Shown here one piece after another: positions 1,597 to 14,080 of a stretch of 22,301 nt of DNA (position 1 is its first letter; each line of letters starts with the position of its first letter). Source of the DNA: a virus; the IMG/VR virus record IMGVR_UViG_3300042868_002360, positions 1-22,301 of that record; one strand, given 5' to 3'. The notes below the pieces were generated by a model, which made no database searches, had not been told where the DNA came from, and saw only the letters and a program-made list of their open reading frames with translations. The translations under genes and the position numbers were made by a program.

Positions 1597-1608
1597 ACAT
1601 TTATTTAG
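1597..1608 (-). promoter_or_regulatory. TAAATA late-promoter-like motif before the 106-aa gene
   Basis: The minus strand reads GCTAAATAAATGTATG. TAAATA ends 6 nt before the A of the ATG, the same spacing as at 575 and 884, and TGTATG is shared. A run of six T at 1636-1631 lies just upstream but its hairpin is weak. There is no Shine-Dalgarno site in the 20 nt before the start. Confidence 0.5.
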
Positions 1609-3859: not shown

Positions 3860-4446
3860 TTTACCAATCAGTTCCTCTAAGACATTTTGGACTACTAATG
3901 ATGTCTAAAGACATCAACTCAATCGCTTTCGCGATTTCGTATTTCGCTTCGCTTCTTTCTTCATCGAGGTAATGAACTAAGTGAGATAAATGATTGACTT
4001 ATGAAACTTTATGTAGATTTTTCAGTCAGACGGAACCGTTTTGAGCGGTTCCACCTTGGGTCTTTATGTGAGTTTCACAGCCGAGACTTTGGGAAGCAGG
4101 TGTTTTGTTCACTGTATGCTAAAGGACTCTGTGCTTTTCCGTACCTGCCACGATATACTTAAAAAAGTATTCTAAACCTCGTTCCTAGTGTCTAGATGTT
4201 TATAGCCAGTGTGTTCGTATGCTAACATTCATACTATATCAATGCGTTGGTTATCTTTGTTTTCAACCTCAACTCACTTCCGATTTTTCAGGATAGTCGT
4301 TTCCACGACGGGAGTGCTTCAATATGTTGCGTGTCTGGTTATTCCCCAGTTTTTCCACAGCCCAATTATAACCGGCGGGCTAACCTTATGTGTTAGTTGA
4401 TATGCCTAGTGATTTGCCAAAGAATGATGATTGTATTTGCCTGTCA
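3860..4446 (-). ncRNA. Candidate large structured non-coding RNA (about 590 nt)
   Basis: No convincing gene occurs on either strand for about 650 nt. Read on the minus strand the segment folds well by eye. Local hairpins: CTAAC/GTTAG (4397-4381), CTGG/CCAG, GTCGT-GGAA-ACGAC (4309-4296), GTATG/CATAC, ATACTT-TTTT-AAGTAT (4170-4155), GGAACCG/CGGTTCC (4052-4032), AATCGC-GAAA-GCGATT (3936-3921) and TGATGTC/GACATCA. Two tetraloops are GNRA only when read on this strand. GTGAGTT (4277-4271) can pair with AACTCAC (4074-4068), closing a 200-nt domain. Inside it, GCAGGT/ACCTGC (4148-4143 with 4101-4096) and CACAG/CTGTG (4133-4129 with 4080-4076) would form a pseudoknot. A TATAAATA motif lies just upstream. 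It might be a phage large ornate RNA, or an origin region. Confidence 0.45.
3899..3916. promoter_or_regulatory. Palindrome near the 3823-3851 promoter (possible operator or RNA hairpin)
   Basis: TGATGTC-TAAA-GACATCA is a perfect 7-bp inverted repeat. Related half-sites (AAAATGTCTTA) follow at 3891-3881 and 3867-3854 on the minus strand, running into the -35 element. It could be a repressor operator or the 3' hairpin of the upstream non-coding RNA. Confidence 0.45.
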
Positions 4447-4450
4447 CAAG

Positions 4451-4458
4451 TATTTATA
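4451..4458 (-). promoter_or_regulatory. TATAAATA late-promoter-like motif before the large non-coding region
   Basis: An exact TATAAATA followed by CTTGTG on the minus strand. It lies between the terminator at 4491-4515 and the structured region starting near 4446, where no gene follows for 670 nt. Expected transcription start is about 4446 if it acts like a T4-type late promoter. Confidence 0.5.
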
Positions 4459-4520: not shown

Positions 4521-4685
4521 TTATTTCATTTTTGCTTCAATCTTTTTAAGAGTATTAGCAATCTCTTCCAAACTATATGCTATGTTGAACAAATGACTTG
4601 ATGCTTTAGTATTGTGGTACTCATCACATACACTACTCTCAACTGCATCTGCTATTCTATCTAATGCGTTTTCAATATTTTCCAT
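4521..4685 (-). CDS. 54-aa helical hypothetical protein
   Basis: Residues MENIENALDRIADAVESSVC then a helical C-terminus (LFNIAYSLEEIANTLKKIEA). The start at 4685 is preferred to an open extension to 4772 because AAGGAG lies 8 nt upstream; the extension runs through two promoters and a leader hairpin. The pattern of two amphipathic helices (IENALDRIADAV and LEEIANTLKKI) suggests a small helical oligomer. Single-gene unit with tandem promoters and its own terminator. Function unknown. Confidence 0.7.
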   Translation of the reverse strand: MENIENALDRIADAVESSVCDEYHNTKASSHLFNIAYSLEEIANTLKKIEAKMK

Positions 4686-4982: not shown

Positions 4983-4988
4983 TATTTA
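4983..4988 (-). promoter_or_regulatory. TAAATA late-promoter-like motif before the four-way-junction RNA
   Basis: The minus strand reads GACTAAATAATATTAGCAGAG. The motif contains the stop codon of the 5516-4986 gene and ends 5 nt before the first paired base of the RNA element. Same motif class as at 575, 884 and 1596. Confidence 0.42.
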
Positions 4989-5516
4989 GTCATCTCGCAT
5001 TGTTTCAGGGTATATTCTGATGATTCCTGCGTTTTCTACAACCACTTCTTTACGCTTTTCATTGCCTGGTGTTTTACGAGCACCTTTGGTTTCACGCATG
5101 AAGTCATTCCATTTGATTGAAGCCGCTTGCCCTATGAGTTCAAACTTGCCATTAAATGGATTTTGAAATTTGTTACAGGTTAAGCATTTTTGTCGCCAAG
5201 CCGCTTTGCCGTTCTTTTGGTGTAGCCTCGCTTCTTTTTCTCTGCCGTTGGCACAATGTTCTCCGCAGTCTTGACAGGTTGTTGCACATCGTTTGACTTT
5301 GGTAAGCATGGGGGCGTAGGTTGGATTAACGCCATTAAATAATTCCATAAAGACTTCTTCGTGTTCATCTTGATATTTCTCCTCGCTGGTCTTTCTGCCT
5401 CGTTTCTTTCTGGCAGCGACACTGGTTTCTTTTTGGGTTTCAGGAAGTTTCCATTCTGCTACTTCACTAAGCCTTCTTCTAAATTCTTTGTCTTCCATTG
5501 TTCCAATGTGGGCCAT
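4986..5516 (-). CDS. Cys-rich (zinc-ribbon-like) phage protein, function unknown
   Basis: A 176-residue basic protein. Residues about 37-43 are a Lys/Arg cluster (KKRGRKT). The centre carries C77, C81, C84 and C88, then C111 and C114 in a CLTC knuckle, a pattern able to bind one or two zinc ions. A region rich in charged and Trp residues follows (RETKGARKTPGNEKRKEVVV). The combination suggests nucleic-acid binding, but no named family was recognised. Two in-frame ATGs are possible: 5516 (weak AGG 4 nt upstream) and 5498 (weak GGA). Either overlaps the upstream Cys-rich gene by 40-58 nt, unusually long for this genome. Its stop lies in a TAAATA motif. Confidence 0.72.
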   Translation of the reverse strand: MAHIGTMEDKEFRRRLSEVAEWKLPETQKETSVAARKKRGRKTSEEKYQDEHEEVFMELFNGVNPTYAPMLTKVKRCATTCQDCGEHCANGREKEARLHQKNGKAAWRQKCLTCNKFQNPFNGKFELIGQAASIKWNDFMRETKGARKTPGNEKRKEVVVENAGIIRIYPETMRDD

Positions 5517-9056: not shown

Positions 9057-12000
9057 TTAGGCGTTGTCATCTGTAAATGCTTTTGAAGTGTTAGCACCAT
9101 CAGCGTGTATCAATAATAAGGTATTGGCATCATTAGTAAATGCAGTTGTTGATGGAGTAAAGCCTGCGGTGTAACGAGCCGTGTTTGAAACACGAACTTC
9201 ATCAATGTAACCATTAAGCATGGCAGTTGTGCCTTCAATCAAACCACCTATACACAGATAGTCTTTACTGAATATGCTGGCACTTGATGTTATTGTGCTG
9301 GATGCTTCTGTTCCATCAACAAAGCCTCTGAATGTAGAACCACTGCGAGTTACTGCCACATGATACCAAGTATCAACCTGCGGAGTAATATCTGAAATTG
9401 TCCAATTATTAGCAATAAGACTACCAGTGCTATCAACTATTGTTACTCTAAATCTTCTAACACCACTTATAGTTTGTGATGCAATTAAGAAACTTGTAGT
9501 AGTATCGTCAGCACTGCTTAAGAAATATTTGTTGCCAGCGGTAGTGGTAACATCGTTGAATCTCACCCAACATTCTATTGTAAAATTTTGATTGGTAAAA
9601 TTAACATTAGGACCATTTACCCTTAACATTGAAGCATCATTGTATGCACCATCAAAGTATGCTGAACTACCACCAAACTTGCTCTGTGCAGTTGATATCT
9701 GTGCGTTTCTGCTAACAATTATATTATTCTGAATGCGAGTTCCAGTAATTGGTGCAAGGCCGTTATCATCTGTGAACACTGTGCTGCCATCAGAGCCATC
9801 TGCGTGTATCAACAATAATGTGCTGGCATCACTTTGGAATGGCGTAGTTGATGGTGTGAATGCTATACCTTGGTATCTTGCTGTATTACTAACACGGAAT
9901 TCATCTATGTGACCATTCCAATGTTTTGCAGTATCAAAGTCGTGTGCACCTATCCAAAGGTATGAAGTAGTTCTATCACCAGTTGAGGCTGTGCCTATGA
10001 CGCTGCCATTGAGATACATTCTTCTAGTTGATCCTTGTTTTTCGCAGACAAAATGATACCAAGTATTAGTTGAAATGGTAGTAGAGACATTTAAATTACT
10101 GTCCCAATCATACCAAGTTACACCACTGCTGTAAAAATAAGGAGTATGACCATTAGGTCCTGCATACCAAAGATTATTTTGTGTGCCTAAAGTTGAAGCA
10201 CGGAACCAACATTCAATGGTCCAATCACCAGTCAATGGTAAGACCTGACTGTCAATAGTTAGTTTATCAGTATTGCCGTCAAATAAAGCACTGGCACCAC
10301 CAAACTTTGATTGTGCGGTATCAACCTGTGCGTTACCTATGGCACTAATACCTTTCTGCGTTCTACCTGCATCATCACGGAATGTGGTTGAAGCATTGGC
10401 ACCATCTGCGTGTATCAACAATAGGGTATTTGAGTCTTGAGTAAAGGCTGTGGTTGCAGGAGTAAAGGAGGCAGTATAACGAGCAATATTTGAAACACGA
10501 ATTTCATCTATATAACCAGTCCAGCCGTGTTGGAATCCATCTGTATTGATGCCAATGGCTGTGATTACTGGTGTAGCAACAGTGCCTGAATATGTGCCAG
10601 TTCCAATACTGGTTCCATCTCTATAGACTGTTACAGTGCTACCACTTCTAACCAATGATATATGATACCAAGTATTGGTTGATAATGTAGTTGATGCACT
10701 TACTCTTTCTGAACCATTGATAAAGATTGAAAACTTGGTAGCATTGTGCCAATAGGCAAAATAGAGGCCACTAAAAGCAAAATTAAAATTTGAATATAAA
10801 ACATTGTATTCATTTAGTGTAGTGCCTCTTACCCAAAATTCAATTGTGAAGTCAGCAGTAAATCCAAAATCAGCAGTATCTGCTATTGATAGGTAATCAC
10901 CTGTTCCATCAAATAGGGCTGAACTACCACCAAACTTTGATTGTGCAGTTGATATCTGTGCATTGCCAACCGCAGTTATAGCCTTTGGTGTAGATCCAAT
11001 AATGCCATTGTCATCACGGAATACTGTTGAGGCATCTGTGCCATCTGCGTGAACTAACAATAAGGTATTGGCATCATTAGTGAAAGGTGTGGTTGATGGA
11101 GTGAATGTTGTGGTATAACGAACTGAGTTTGAAACACGGATTTCATCTAGCCAACCATTTAAACTATAGTTAGCACTGGTATATGCTCCTAGGATATTGG
11201 TTCCAGAAACAAACAAAGTTGATGTGCTGGTCATTGAACCAGCAATAGTGCTTCCTGCATATGATGTTCCGTCTTGATAGAATGTCAGTGTGCTGCCTGA
11301 TTTAATCAATGCTATGTGATACCAAACACCAGTTGTGATACTAGGAGTGTATCTTGCCACATATTGATTACTGCCTGTCATTAAACTAGATTCCCATCTA
11401 TAGGTTCCACTATTGTTTAATAAAGCAAAATATCTATTGCCGTCACCTGTGACAAACATATGAAAACTATTAGATGCAGGTAAAGAATTAAATCTCACCC
11501 AGCATTCAAAGGTAAAATCTCCAGTTATGTTGCCTGCGAGATTTTCTACTAAAAGATAATCACCAGTGCCATCAAATAGGGCACTTGCACCACCAAACTT
11601 GCTCTGTGCAGTATCAACCTGTGCGTTACCTATAGCAGTGATACCTTTCTGTTCTCTTGCCCCATTGTCATCTTCAAAGAATGTGGCTGCGTCTGTGCCG
11701 TTGGCGTGCATTAAGAATAATGTGTTGGCATCATTGACAAATGGTGTATTTGGGGCTAAGAAGTTGGCGGTATAACGGGCGGTGTTGGAAATGCGGAATT
11801 CATCTATGTGGCCATTAATTGAAATGGCACCATCAAATTGTGCACCAATGATACAACTTCTATCAGTGCCCATATCTTGCGTGTAGCCAGTTGCTGTGTA
11901 TTCAACGGTGCCATTAACAAATATTCTTAATGTGGTGCCACTTTTACTAAATGCCAAATGTCTAAAAGTTGAGTCTGCACAATTAGTAGTTCCTGAAATA

Positions 12001-12344
12001 GTTCCTGTGGTGTTATCATAATAACTGGCAAAGCCTGATGCACTTAGAAAAAATACCCCTGCACTTGCGGTGGGTATTCTATTGTCAAAGAAAACTCTAT
12101 TGGCTGTTCCTGTTCTAAGCCATAATTCAACGGTCCAGTCACCTGTGCCTAATGATATAGGAGTTGTAGAAGAAAGATAATCACCTGTGCCATCTAATAA
12201 AAGACTTGCCCCACCAAACTTGCTCTGTGCTGTGTCAATCTGTGCATTGCCAACAGCAGTGATGCCTTTCTTAGATCGCAAGACCTGTGCCACAGCAGCC
12301 ACTGTGAAACTTGCACCAACCATTGAACATAGAAATCCACTCAT
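9057..12344 (-). CDS. Virion adhesin with five tandem LamG-like lectin domains
   Basis: A 1095-residue protein. After a short N-terminal segment (MSGFLCSMVGASFTVAAVAQ) it consists almost entirely of five LamG/concanavalin-like units beginning near residues 27, 235, 455, 665 and 872. Each opens with NAQ[IV][DS]TAQSKFGG[AS]S, then DFTIE[FC]WVR, W...YHIA..RSGST, and closes with IDE[FI]RVSNTARYTA and DANTLLL[IV]HADG. Such domains bind sugars or surface polymers. The start at 12344 forms a TAATG overlap with the upstream fibre; an open extension to 12401 lies wholly inside that gene and is rejected. The stop forms part of the next Shine-Dalgarno site. Probably a host-surface adhesin in the fibre complex. 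Confidence 0.85.
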   Translation of the reverse strand: MSGFLCSMVGASFTVAAVAQVLRSKKGITAVGNAQIDTAQSKFGGASLLLDGTGDYLSSTTPISLGTGDWTVELWLRTGTANRVFFDNRIPTASAGVFFLSASGFASYYDNTTGTISGTTNCADSTFRHLAFSKSGTTLRIFVNGTVEYTATGYTQDMGTDRSCIIGAQFDGAISINGHIDEFRISNTARYTANFLAPNTPFVNDANTLFLMHANGTDAATFFEDDNGAREQKGITAIGNAQVDTAQSKFGGASALFDGTGDYLLVENLAGNITGDFTFECWVRFNSLPASNSFHMFVTGDGNRYFALLNNSGTYRWESSLMTGSNQYVARYTPSITTGVWYHIALIKSGSTLTFYQDGTSYAGSTIAGSMTSTSTLFVSGTNILGAYTSANYSLNGWLDEIRVSNSVRYTTTFTPSTTPFTNDANTLLLVHADGTDASTVFRDDNGIIGSTPKAITAVGNAQISTAQSKFGGSSALFDGTGDYLSIADTADFGFTADFTIEFWVRGTTLNEYNVLYSNFNFAFSGLYFAYWHNATKFSIFINGSERVSASTTLSTNTWYHISLVRSGSTVTVYRDGTSIGTGTYSGTVATPVITAIGINTDGFQHGWTGYIDEIRVSNIARYTASFTPATTAFTQDSNTLLLIHADGANASTTFRDDAGRTQKGISAIGNAQVDTAQSKFGGASALFDGNTDKLTIDSQVLPLTGDWTIECWFRASTLGTQNNLWYAGPNGHTPYFYSSGVTWYDWDSNLNVSTTISTNTWYHFVCEKQGSTRRMYLNGSVIGTASTGDRTTSYLWIGAHDFDTAKHWNGHIDEFRVSNTARYQGIAFTPSTTPFQSDASTLLLIHADGSDGSTVFTDDNGLAPITGTRIQNNIIVSRNAQISTAQSKFGGSSAYFDGAYNDASMLRVNGPNVNFTNQNFTIECWVRFNDVTTTAGNKYFLSSADDTTTSFLIASQTISGVRRFRVTIVDSTGSLIANNWTISDITPQVDTWYHVAVTRSGSTFRGFVDGTEASSTITSSASIFSKDYLCIGGLIEGTTAMLNGYIDEVRVSNTARYTAGFTPSTTAFTNDANTLLLIHADGANTSKAFTDDNA
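9660..12270 (-). repeat. Five ~630-nt LamG coding repeats
   Basis: The conserved block encoding TAQSKFGG occurs near 12215, 11595, 10932, 10302 and 9674, a period of about 620-660 nt. Blocks 2 and 4 share NAQVDTAQ and blocks 3 and 5 share NAQISTAQ, also at DNA level (GGTTGATACTGC-type versus AGATATCAACTGC-type codons), suggesting a two-unit duplication. Confidence 0.8.
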
Positions 12345-14080
12345 TATGATACATTCCCAGTAATGATACAGCGTGTTCCACTTAGGAACAGGATGTTGCA
12401 AACTCCTCTTGTGGCCAAACTCACTGAGGCTTTGTCAGTGTCAGTGCCCGCAATGTAAGCATCTGAAATTGTACAGGTTATGGTTATGGCTGCGGAGTGA
12501 TTATTCACAACCACAACAACATCACCTTCTGCAAATGTTGAGTTAGGTATGGTAATTGAACCACCTGAACCTACTTGAACATATTCACCTACATCGCCTA
12601 CTGCTAGGGTGTATGAAGAAGTTTTTGTGCCTACAGGTGGCAGTGTGCGATAACCAACCTTGTTAGTGCCGTCTGCTGTGGTGTTAGTTAAGTTGCCTGA
12701 TGCTGGTGTTCCCAGTGCAGGTGTTACCAATGTTGGTGAAGTGGCAAATACCAATGCACCTGTGCCTGTTTCATCTGTGACTGCTGATATTAAATTTGCT
12801 GAACTTGGAGTGGCTAAGAATGTAGCAACACCAGTGCCTAGTCCTGAAACACCTGTTGAGATTGGCAAACCTGAAGCATTAGTTAAAGTGGCTGAACTTG
12901 GTGTGCCTAGAGCACCACCACTTACTAATGGTGTAGTGCCACTTGAAGCGGCTGTGATACGACCTTGTGCGTCAACTGTGATTGAAGCATAGGTATATGA
13001 GTTTGCCGAAACTGCGGTATTAGCCAATGCAATAGCACCGGTTGAACTGTTATAAGAAATGCCAGTCGACCCACTTAATGCTGAACGAGCATTTGAATCT
13101 GCATATTGTGTAATGGTTGTGGCAATAGCACCATTGGTAATTGTAATGCCTGTTGAAGCAGAAAAACTATCTCTGGCTCGTTGTGTAGTAAAATAAAGAT
13201 TGGTTGAACCTTCAGTTACTGAATCAGTTGACCCAGGGCTTGCTGAAATCTCTACATAAGCACTACCACTCCAACGATAAATTTTACCGTTGTCTAGTGT
13301 AACATAAATCTTTGATGTTTCACCTGTGACTGGCAATGCGGCTTGGTTTGCGGATTCAACAACATCGTCAACATAACTTGGTAATTGGCTGCTTGGAACC
13401 AATCCAGAACTATCAAGGCTGGCATAACCGTTTGCCTGTCCTTTTGCTGATGTAACTTCAAGTCCTGAGAAACTTGGACCTGTGTAGGTAACAACACCTG
13501 TTGATGAGTTATAACTTAGACTGCCTTCACCGCCTGCGTCTGTAACACTAACGGCACCTCTTGCGGCTGCGTCAGTGTATTGAGTGATTGTTGTAGCAAT
13601 GGCACCATCTGTTATGGTGATACCTGTGCCACCTGAAAAGTGTGCTCTTACTTCACTGGCACTAGGTCCTGTGTAGGTAATAACGCCTGTGGTATTGTTG
13701 TAGGCCACACTACCATCGCCACCTGCATCGGTGACTGATATGGCTGTTCTTGCATCAGCAGTGGCAAAGTCTGCTGAACCGTTTGATGCGGCTGTGATAC
13801 GACCCTGTGCATCTACTGTGATTGAGGCTTTGGTATATGAACCTGCTGTGACTGCGGTATTATCTAAATTTAGTGTAACAGTTTTGGTAGTCATTGCTGA
13901 CGATAAACCTGTGCCACCTGAAATCGTTACTGTGTCGTTTAAGTCAATAGCCTGACTGGTGCCGCTATCGCCAGCAACGGTAACGGTTGCATTTTGTAAG
14001 TTGGTAAAGTTTGCATCTCCTTCCACGAAAGAGAGTGCGGAGCCTTTGCCTGCTCTGGTTACTATAACTGGCTTAGTCAT
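12344..14080 (-). CDS. Repeat-rich tail fibre protein
   Basis: A 578-residue Ser/Thr/Gly/Ala-rich protein. The N-terminus MTKPVIVTRAGKGSALSFVE followed by GDANFTNLQNATVTV is an attachment sequence I recognise from fibres of uncultured aquatic phages. Residues about 70-400 repeat ITVDAQGRITAAS, VSVTDAGG[DE]GS and Y[NS]TGV[IV]TYTGPS, which fold into a beta fibre. The C-terminus (YTLAVGDVGEYVQVGSGGSI, then TIPNSTFAEGD and ITITCTI) resembles a fibre tip. AAGGA lies about 8 nt before the ATG at 14080. A terminator hairpin lies just upstream, so this gene and those after it may be expressed at a lower level or from another promoter. It is coupled to the LamG gene by TAATG. Confidence 0.83.
   Translation of the reverse strand: MTKPVIVTRAGKGSALSFVEGDANFTNLQNATVTVAGDSGTSQAIDLNDTVTISGGTGLSSAMTTKTVTLNLDNTAVTAGSYTKASITVDAQGRITAASNGSADFATADARTAISVTDAGGDGSVAYNNTTGVITYTGPSASEVRAHFSGGTGITITDGAIATTITQYTDAAARGAVSVTDAGGEGSLSYNSSTGVVTYTGPSFSGLEVTSAKGQANGYASLDSSGLVPSSQLPSYVDDVVESANQAALPVTGETSKIYVTLDNGKIYRWSGSAYVEISASPGSTDSVTEGSTNLYFTTQRARDSFSASTGITITNGAIATTITQYADSNARSALSGSTGISYNSSTGAIALANTAVSANSYTYASITVDAQGRITAASSGTTPLVSGGALGTPSSATLTNASGLPISTGVSGLGTGVATFLATPSSANLISAVTDETGTGALVFATSPTLVTPALGTPASGNLTNTTADGTNKVGYRTLPPVGTKTSSYTLAVGDVGEYVQVGSGGSITIPNSTFAEGDVVVVVNNHSAAITITCTISDAYIAGTDTDKASVSLATRGVCNILFLSGTRCIITGNVS

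Follow-up and report, generated by a model that had tools for sequence, protein, structure and literature searches.

What is encoded in a phage by several hundred nucleotides without a recognizable gene? The window (the whole stretch of DNA analysed here, a viral record of 22.3 kb) has its genes on the minus strand: the start of the large terminase comes first, followed by the small terminase, whose PHROG match is weak, by small genes and by a long module for the tail. A long tail-type protein with several similar LamG-like repeats is encoded at 9057-12401 (minus strand). No convincing gene could be found between the terminator of the upstream gene at 4515-4500 (minus strand; the gene itself ends at 4521) and a sigma-70-like promoter at 3851-3823 (minus strand). 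The first-pass annotation had already described this gap as gene-free, with a terminator upstream, and both points hold. It had further proposed a large structured non-coding RNA on the minus strand, perhaps of a new class, to be checked by Rfam, homologues and covariation and to be refuted by an ORF conserved in homologues. These checks were run and all speak for the proposal. On comparative evidence, the gap holds a genuine gene for a large, intricately folded minus-strand RNA without a protein product.

All coordinates of the RNA given below refer to the minus strand. Its probable extent is 3900-4446, with the 5′ end at about 4446 being deduced from a TAAATA element. It comprises a conserved core, CUAACACAUAAGG ... 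UCUACAUAAAG, at 3990-4399, as defined by alignments and nhmmer, and a terminal hairpin, GAUGUC-UUUA-GACAUC, at 3900-3915. In 163 of 174 homologues, the core is followed by a perfect hairpin with 6 bp or more, in 96 different sequences, versus 17 of 174 in shuffled sequence; the 3′ end of the RNA is thus probably near 3900. A further hairpin with a GNRA loop, AAUCGC-GAAA-GCGAUU (3921-3936), has related hairpins after the core in relatives.

Homologues in uncultured phages

The search for homologues started from the neighbouring protein of the window (4986-5516), which led to three related contigs. One of these, L004, aligns with the gap over 612 nt at 80% identity. L004 is the closest full relative of the window, and its terminase shares 53% identity with the one of Pelagibacter phage HTVC111P. 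When DNA patterns derived from the gap were searched in viral contigs, a 20-nt piece matched 15 of them, a second piece 78, a variant of the second piece at least 120, and a third piece at least 119. As most homologues came from such exact patterns, conservation is biased at the patterns themselves, while pairing elsewhere is unbiased. When a profile built from the homologues was run with nhmmer, it confirmed about 160 loci of the first set and each of the 117 loci that were new in the second. About 270 IMG/VR contigs carry homologues of the RNA. These contigs are between about 4 kb and 364 kb long, which indicates that the RNA is probably common in uncultured phages, and their comparison reveals a spread across unrelated tailed phages. 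One pattern match, in contig L116, proved to be false.

No ORF is conserved among the homologues. Their lengths are random modulo 3, and stretches without stop codons are as long as in shuffled sequence. A coding or antisense gene in the gap was rejected, as there is no coding potential among the homologues.

Among 50,697 phage records, none gave a credible match to the RNA, the sole weak match, in cyanophage S-PRM1, being due to chance (only 5 bits with the core model). The plasmids searched gave no credible match, and when 84,980 bacterial and archaeal genomes were scanned with a pattern, only four chance matches that lack extended homology came up. The isolate relatives HTVC111P, HTVC202P, DSL-LC06 and Melnitz match neither the profile nor the covariance model R1 (see below), and nothing was found by R1 in the bacterial, cyanophage, pelagiphage and methylophage sequences searched. 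In the literature searched, which left subscription journals and preprints mostly outside its scope, no description of the RNA was found; a published one is possible.

The slot of the RNA holds other RNA-like sequence in syntenic relatives (L002, 10640-11250; L003, 11000-11480). L002 has only the 5′ end and helix P1 in common with the RNA, L003 only the part with the 3′ hairpin, and no relationship is seen between the middle parts. Interchangeable RNAs may occupy this slot. In L178, 10591-10440 (minus strand) matches R1 marginally (21 bits, E 0.16) at the site that corresponds by synteny to that of the RNA in T4-like contigs; this may be a strongly diverged member of the family. Phage DSL-LC06 (L185) has 755 nt without annotated genes at 573-1327, which do not match the RNA; an ORF at the start of this region has an in-frame TGA inside a zinc-ribbon-like motif (KAQY*CQDC).

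Covariation and fold

The folding energy of the gap is unremarkable when compared with 20 shuffles per strand (z of 0.02 for the minus and -1.56 for the plus strand). Because the minus-strand fold is no better than that of the shuffles, thermodynamic folding was left out of the evidence, and the case for the RNA rests on conservation and covariation. We aligned 91 core sequences, built a tree, and simulated 40 alignments on this tree with site rates kept. Pairs were scored by APC-corrected G, the threshold being the level at which 0.05 pairs per alignment are expected; the null is our own tree simulation and not R-scape. Among the 91 RNAs, 13 pairs exceed the null, 11 of which are canonical. 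With 174 RNAs, 11 pairs do so, nine of them canonical at a level of at least 80%. These include 4396/4222, which joins the 5′ end to a hairpin loop. Counts for named helices with slid controls support 18 helices, P11 weakly, and four of the 18 cross others and thus form pseudoknots. For the central domain (45 sequences), there are 296 double-change cells, in which both partners of a pair differ, versus 97 +/- 10 in shuffled alignments (0 of 500) and 26-61 in slid ones. An independent tool found 87.9% paired cells in this domain versus 69.1 when shuffled and 32-47 when slid. The covariance model R1, which was built from the central domain, recovers the left-out divergent relatives L060, L071, L020 and L038 with E-values from 7e-14 to 7e-8. 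As the helices covary much more than the shuffled, slid or tree-simulated controls, we regard base-pair covariation as decisive for the fold, and the conserved pairing confirms the minus-strand orientation.

In 5′ to 3′ order, the RNA consists of a CUAACA segment that pairs with the loop of P6, followed by P1, P2, P3, P6, P7, P10, P11, P12 and the terminal hairpin. P3 encloses the P4 domain and the optional P5, while P7 encloses P8 and P9 together with the crossing helices PK_b and PK_c. The CUAACA segment (4391-4396) is the 5′ strand of PK_a and pairs with 4227-4222 in the P6 hairpin loop; this helix is 100% canonical in the 91 RNAs, with 28 double-change cells. Hairpin P1 (4360-4380) pairs GCCC with GGGC (4380-4377 with 4363-4360; 100% canonical, 27 double changes). 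Hairpin P2 (4335-4349; CUGG/CCAG, 4349-4346 with 4338-4335) is supported by helix counts and the tree-null test. The long-range helix P3 (4236-4325; 4325-4319 with 4242-4236) is 99% canonical with 33 double changes. Within P3, the P4 domain (4272-4315) is closed by the outer helix ACUC/GAGU (4315-4312/4275-4272; 93% canonical, 18 double changes). The domain contains the GNRA hairpin P4b, GUCGU-GGAA-ACGAC (4309-4305/4300-4296), with pairs 4307/4298 and 4305/4300 above the null, and P4c (4293-4291/4281-4279), which is supported by helix counts. Helix counts and pair 4266/4251 in the tree-null test support hairpin P5 (4249-4268), which is optional in the family. Hairpin P6 (4217-4234), whose loop forms PK_a, is 100% canonical.

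The central domain is closed by the long-range helix P7/P7b (4110-4211; 4211-4203 with 4121-4118 and 4114-4110), which helix counts and the central-domain test support. Its hairpin P8 (4172-4195) has the near-invariant loop AGGAACGA and is supported by helix counts and covariation tests, while hairpin P9 (4155-4170), which varies in length, is supported by covariation tests. PK_b (4131-4151; GUG/CAC, 4151-4149 with 4133-4131) is 100% canonical with 98 double changes and is also supported by the tree-null and central-domain tests. It is crossed by PK_c (4124-4140; GGA/UCC, 4140-4138 with 4126-4124), for which helix counts and the central-domain test were positive. P10 (4096-4148; GCAGG/CCUGC, 4148-4144 with 4100-4096) crosses P7, is 100% canonical and is supported by the central-domain test as well. 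P11 (4060-4087; GUCU/AGAC, 4087-4084 with 4063-4060) is 81% canonical, and hairpin P12 (4029-4055; GGUGGAACCG/CGGUUCCGUC) 94%.

The structural details of the first-pass annotation fared unevenly. Hairpins with GNRA loops, as it had proposed, exist at 4309-4296 and 3936-3921. Of its proposed pseudoknot, helix 4148-4143/4101-4096 stands (100% canonical in 91 homologues, 19 double-change cells) and is indeed part of a pseudoknot. The crossing helix 4133-4129/4080-4076, however, is only 69% canonical and had to be dropped; what the first helix actually meets is P7 (4211-4203/4121-4110), PK_b and PK_c. A 7-bp helix of 4277-4271 with 4074-4068, which was thought to close a 200-nt domain, is not supported: 82% of its pairs are canonical, there are 4 double changes, and it competes with the outer helix of the P4 domain.

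Few classes of large structured RNA are known from bacteria and phages, with GOLLD, ROOL and OLE among them. Being conserved, covarying, non-coding and phage-borne, the RNA falls into the broad class of large structured phage RNAs. None of 4227 Rfam families, GOLLD and ROOL included, matches it at curated thresholds, which places it outside the described families. At low thresholds, the window and 14 relatives gave only skipping-rope RNA and scattered chance matches. Skipping-rope RNA (RF02924; 18.3 bits at 4277-4209, minus strand, E 0.2) was rejected, as its gathering score is 36.7 and relatives show no such match. A tmRNA was considered since Melnitz carries one and the size fits; ARAGORN and Rfam found none.

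GOLLD resembles the RNA in being large, pseudoknotted and phage-encoded, and ROOL in being a large ornate phage RNA without assigned function. Both often lie near tRNA islands, which for GOLLD is usual though not obligatory, whereas ARAGORN detected no tRNA genes near the RNA in the window and 60 loci. The RNA is also shorter than GOLLD and is found beside a GIY-YIG gene in relatives. By analogy, an RNA-only oligomer or cage would agree with the phage origin, the size, several pseudoknots and the GNRA loops, and GOLLD and ROOL assemble without protein, their functions, like that of OLE, being still poorly understood (PMC12286853). With neither a match to the Rfam models of GOLLD and ROOL nor tRNA genes at these loci, we consider such a cage rather unlikely. 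The compact core with its short crossing helices P10, PK_b and PK_c and its invariant purines is also what a ribozyme might look like, be it self-cleaving, self-processing or acting in trans. This is quite unlikely, as no ribozyme or intron model of Rfam matches and inspection of the flanks of the RNA loci revealed no interrupted gene. The latter point also makes a spliced intron unlikely.

Paired heptamers and upstream elements

The heptamer ACAUAAA occurs twice in the RNA, at 4063-4069 and at 4008-4014, and the two copies change in concert. The block sits inside the motifs ACUCACAURAAG and AUCUACAURAAG. Both copies are identical in 163 of 174 RNAs, while shuffling one copy among the RNAs results in a mean of 66 and a maximum of 77. 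The heptamer takes 13 forms, with about 30 changes per copy on the RNA tree, and 4065/4010 is the only strong non-canonical pair of distant columns that exceeds the null in both runs (91 and 174 RNAs). The copies are not complementary to each other, a search for a third element complementary to them found none, and they are not enriched elsewhere in the contigs. We infer that both heptamers are sites for one common partner outside the RNA. This partner is unlikely to be the GIY-YIG endonuclease described below, because the copies are also identical in 19 of 24 RNAs without an adjacent gene for it.

A candidate promoter element, TATAAATA, is found at 4451-4458 (minus strand). The first-pass annotation had singled out this exact sequence, whose frequency in the window, however, is that expected by chance (2 copies versus 1.58 expected). 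Most related siphophages have [GA]CTAAATA instead, at about the same distance: in siphophage-type relatives this or a similar element is 54-78 nt upstream of the core. TATAAATA might be a T4 late promoter. In the T4-like group, no [GA]CTAAATA-like element is found upstream of the core, and the RNA may be co-transcribed with the upstream gene. One might ask if the RNA only arises by processing of a trailer or leader that belongs to neighbouring genes and does nothing in trans by itself. In many relatives the upstream gene has its stop codon inside the 5′ end of the RNA, and a promoter-like element is missing from those relatives. Yet the fold stays constant while flanking genes differ, and no single downstream gene is common to the loci, which makes this explanation highly improbable.

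Elsewhere in the window, TAAATA elements occur directly before gene starts (580-587, 889-896 and 1601-1608, minus strand), and 7 of 9 matches to HTAAATAH are on the coding strand. This suggests that TAAATA is a promoter or leader element of the window phage. A second short conserved non-coding stretch at 4985-4863 (minus strand), about 80% identical in L002, L003 and L004, starts at a CTAAATA element and has a strong terminator at its end (4885-4863). It probably encodes a small RNA.

The GIY-YIG endonuclease gene

A recurrent neighbour of the RNA codes for a SegE-type GIY-YIG endonuclease (PF19835), the closest relative of which is that of Methylophilales phage Melnitz. Of the 156 loci in the first set, 99 have its gene next to the RNA (91 upstream, 8 downstream), as have 102 of 117 loci in the second. 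In the window, the RNA is present without this gene. As we read the protein sequences, the order in many T4-like loci is gp47, gp46, a small gene, the GIY-YIG gene and the RNA. In L244, the gp46-like protein upstream of the RNA appears to have an intein-like insertion after the nucleotide-binding motif. Distances between RNAs track those between endonucleases (r 0.62-0.64) more closely than those of gp46 (0.41-0.49) or of the gene in between (0.37-0.44), while the gene in between tracks gp46 (0.51-0.75). The partial correlation of RNA and endonuclease is 0.54 (0 of 500 permutations), although the correlation could be due in part to the closeness of the two genes. At the level of sequence, the RNA is co-inherited with the SegE-type endonuclease gene. 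Of 30 RNA-bearing records without an adjacent endonuclease, which may be fragments, none has one elsewhere (positive control 7 of 7).

This invites comparison with structured RNAs that travel with nucleases. Group I introns with a GIY-YIG homing endonuclease are known in T4-like phages, but here no intron model matches and the endonuclease lies outside the RNA. HEARO / IscB omega RNA is likewise a structured RNA beside a co-travelling nuclease gene, but the nuclease is IscB (HNH/RuvC) and not GIY-YIG (PF19835), its model does not match, and the RNA described here is kept without a nuclease. By analogy to the omega RNA of IscB, RNA and GIY-YIG protein could be one enzyme, with the RNA as cofactor or guide of the nuclease. 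Co-inheritance, the nearly constant adjacency in T4-like relatives (102 of 117) and adjacency in two gene orders would be expected from this. However, the window phage and other RNAs without a nearby endonuclease keep fold and heptamers, and the ends of the RNA showed no noticeable hypervariable segment that would resemble a guide. Furthermore, the neighbour belongs to the SegE-like freestanding endonucleases, a protein family that is common without the RNA: hundreds of phage records hold such proteins where no such RNA was found. We therefore think a joint enzyme unlikely, if worth keeping in mind.

With moderate confidence, we favour a new class of trans-acting phage RNA that has spread with a homing endonuclease. 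Transcribed from a promoter of its own, the locus would yield a stable structured RNA of some 500-550 nt that lies between the terminator upstream and the promoter downstream. The fold, a compact core in which four helices cross others, is shown by sequence comparison, and the two heptamers would be equivalent binding sites for one outside partner, which may be a protein of host or phage or a different RNA. The RNA might then serve as scaffold or decoy ribonucleoprotein during infection. The endonuclease would be a homing-type passenger for which the conserved RNA gene is a niche, and its homing would spread the RNA between phages; the window phage would have retained the RNA without it. More tentatively, this undescribed class of large RNA, whose core would bind a single external partner at two identical 7-nt sites that co-evolve, might spread between unrelated phages as an RNA-plus-GIY-YIG cassette and represent a new kind of mobile ribonucleoprotein or RNA-dependent homing system.

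Large phage RNAs as such are familiar, and novelty is claimed for the RNA family. The concerted pair of heptamers provides a direct handle for identifying the partner, and the link to the endonuclease is a test case for the movement of non-coding RNA genes between viruses. If our reading is true, phages carry a new class of RNA with a fold of its own that is probably common in their uncultured members.
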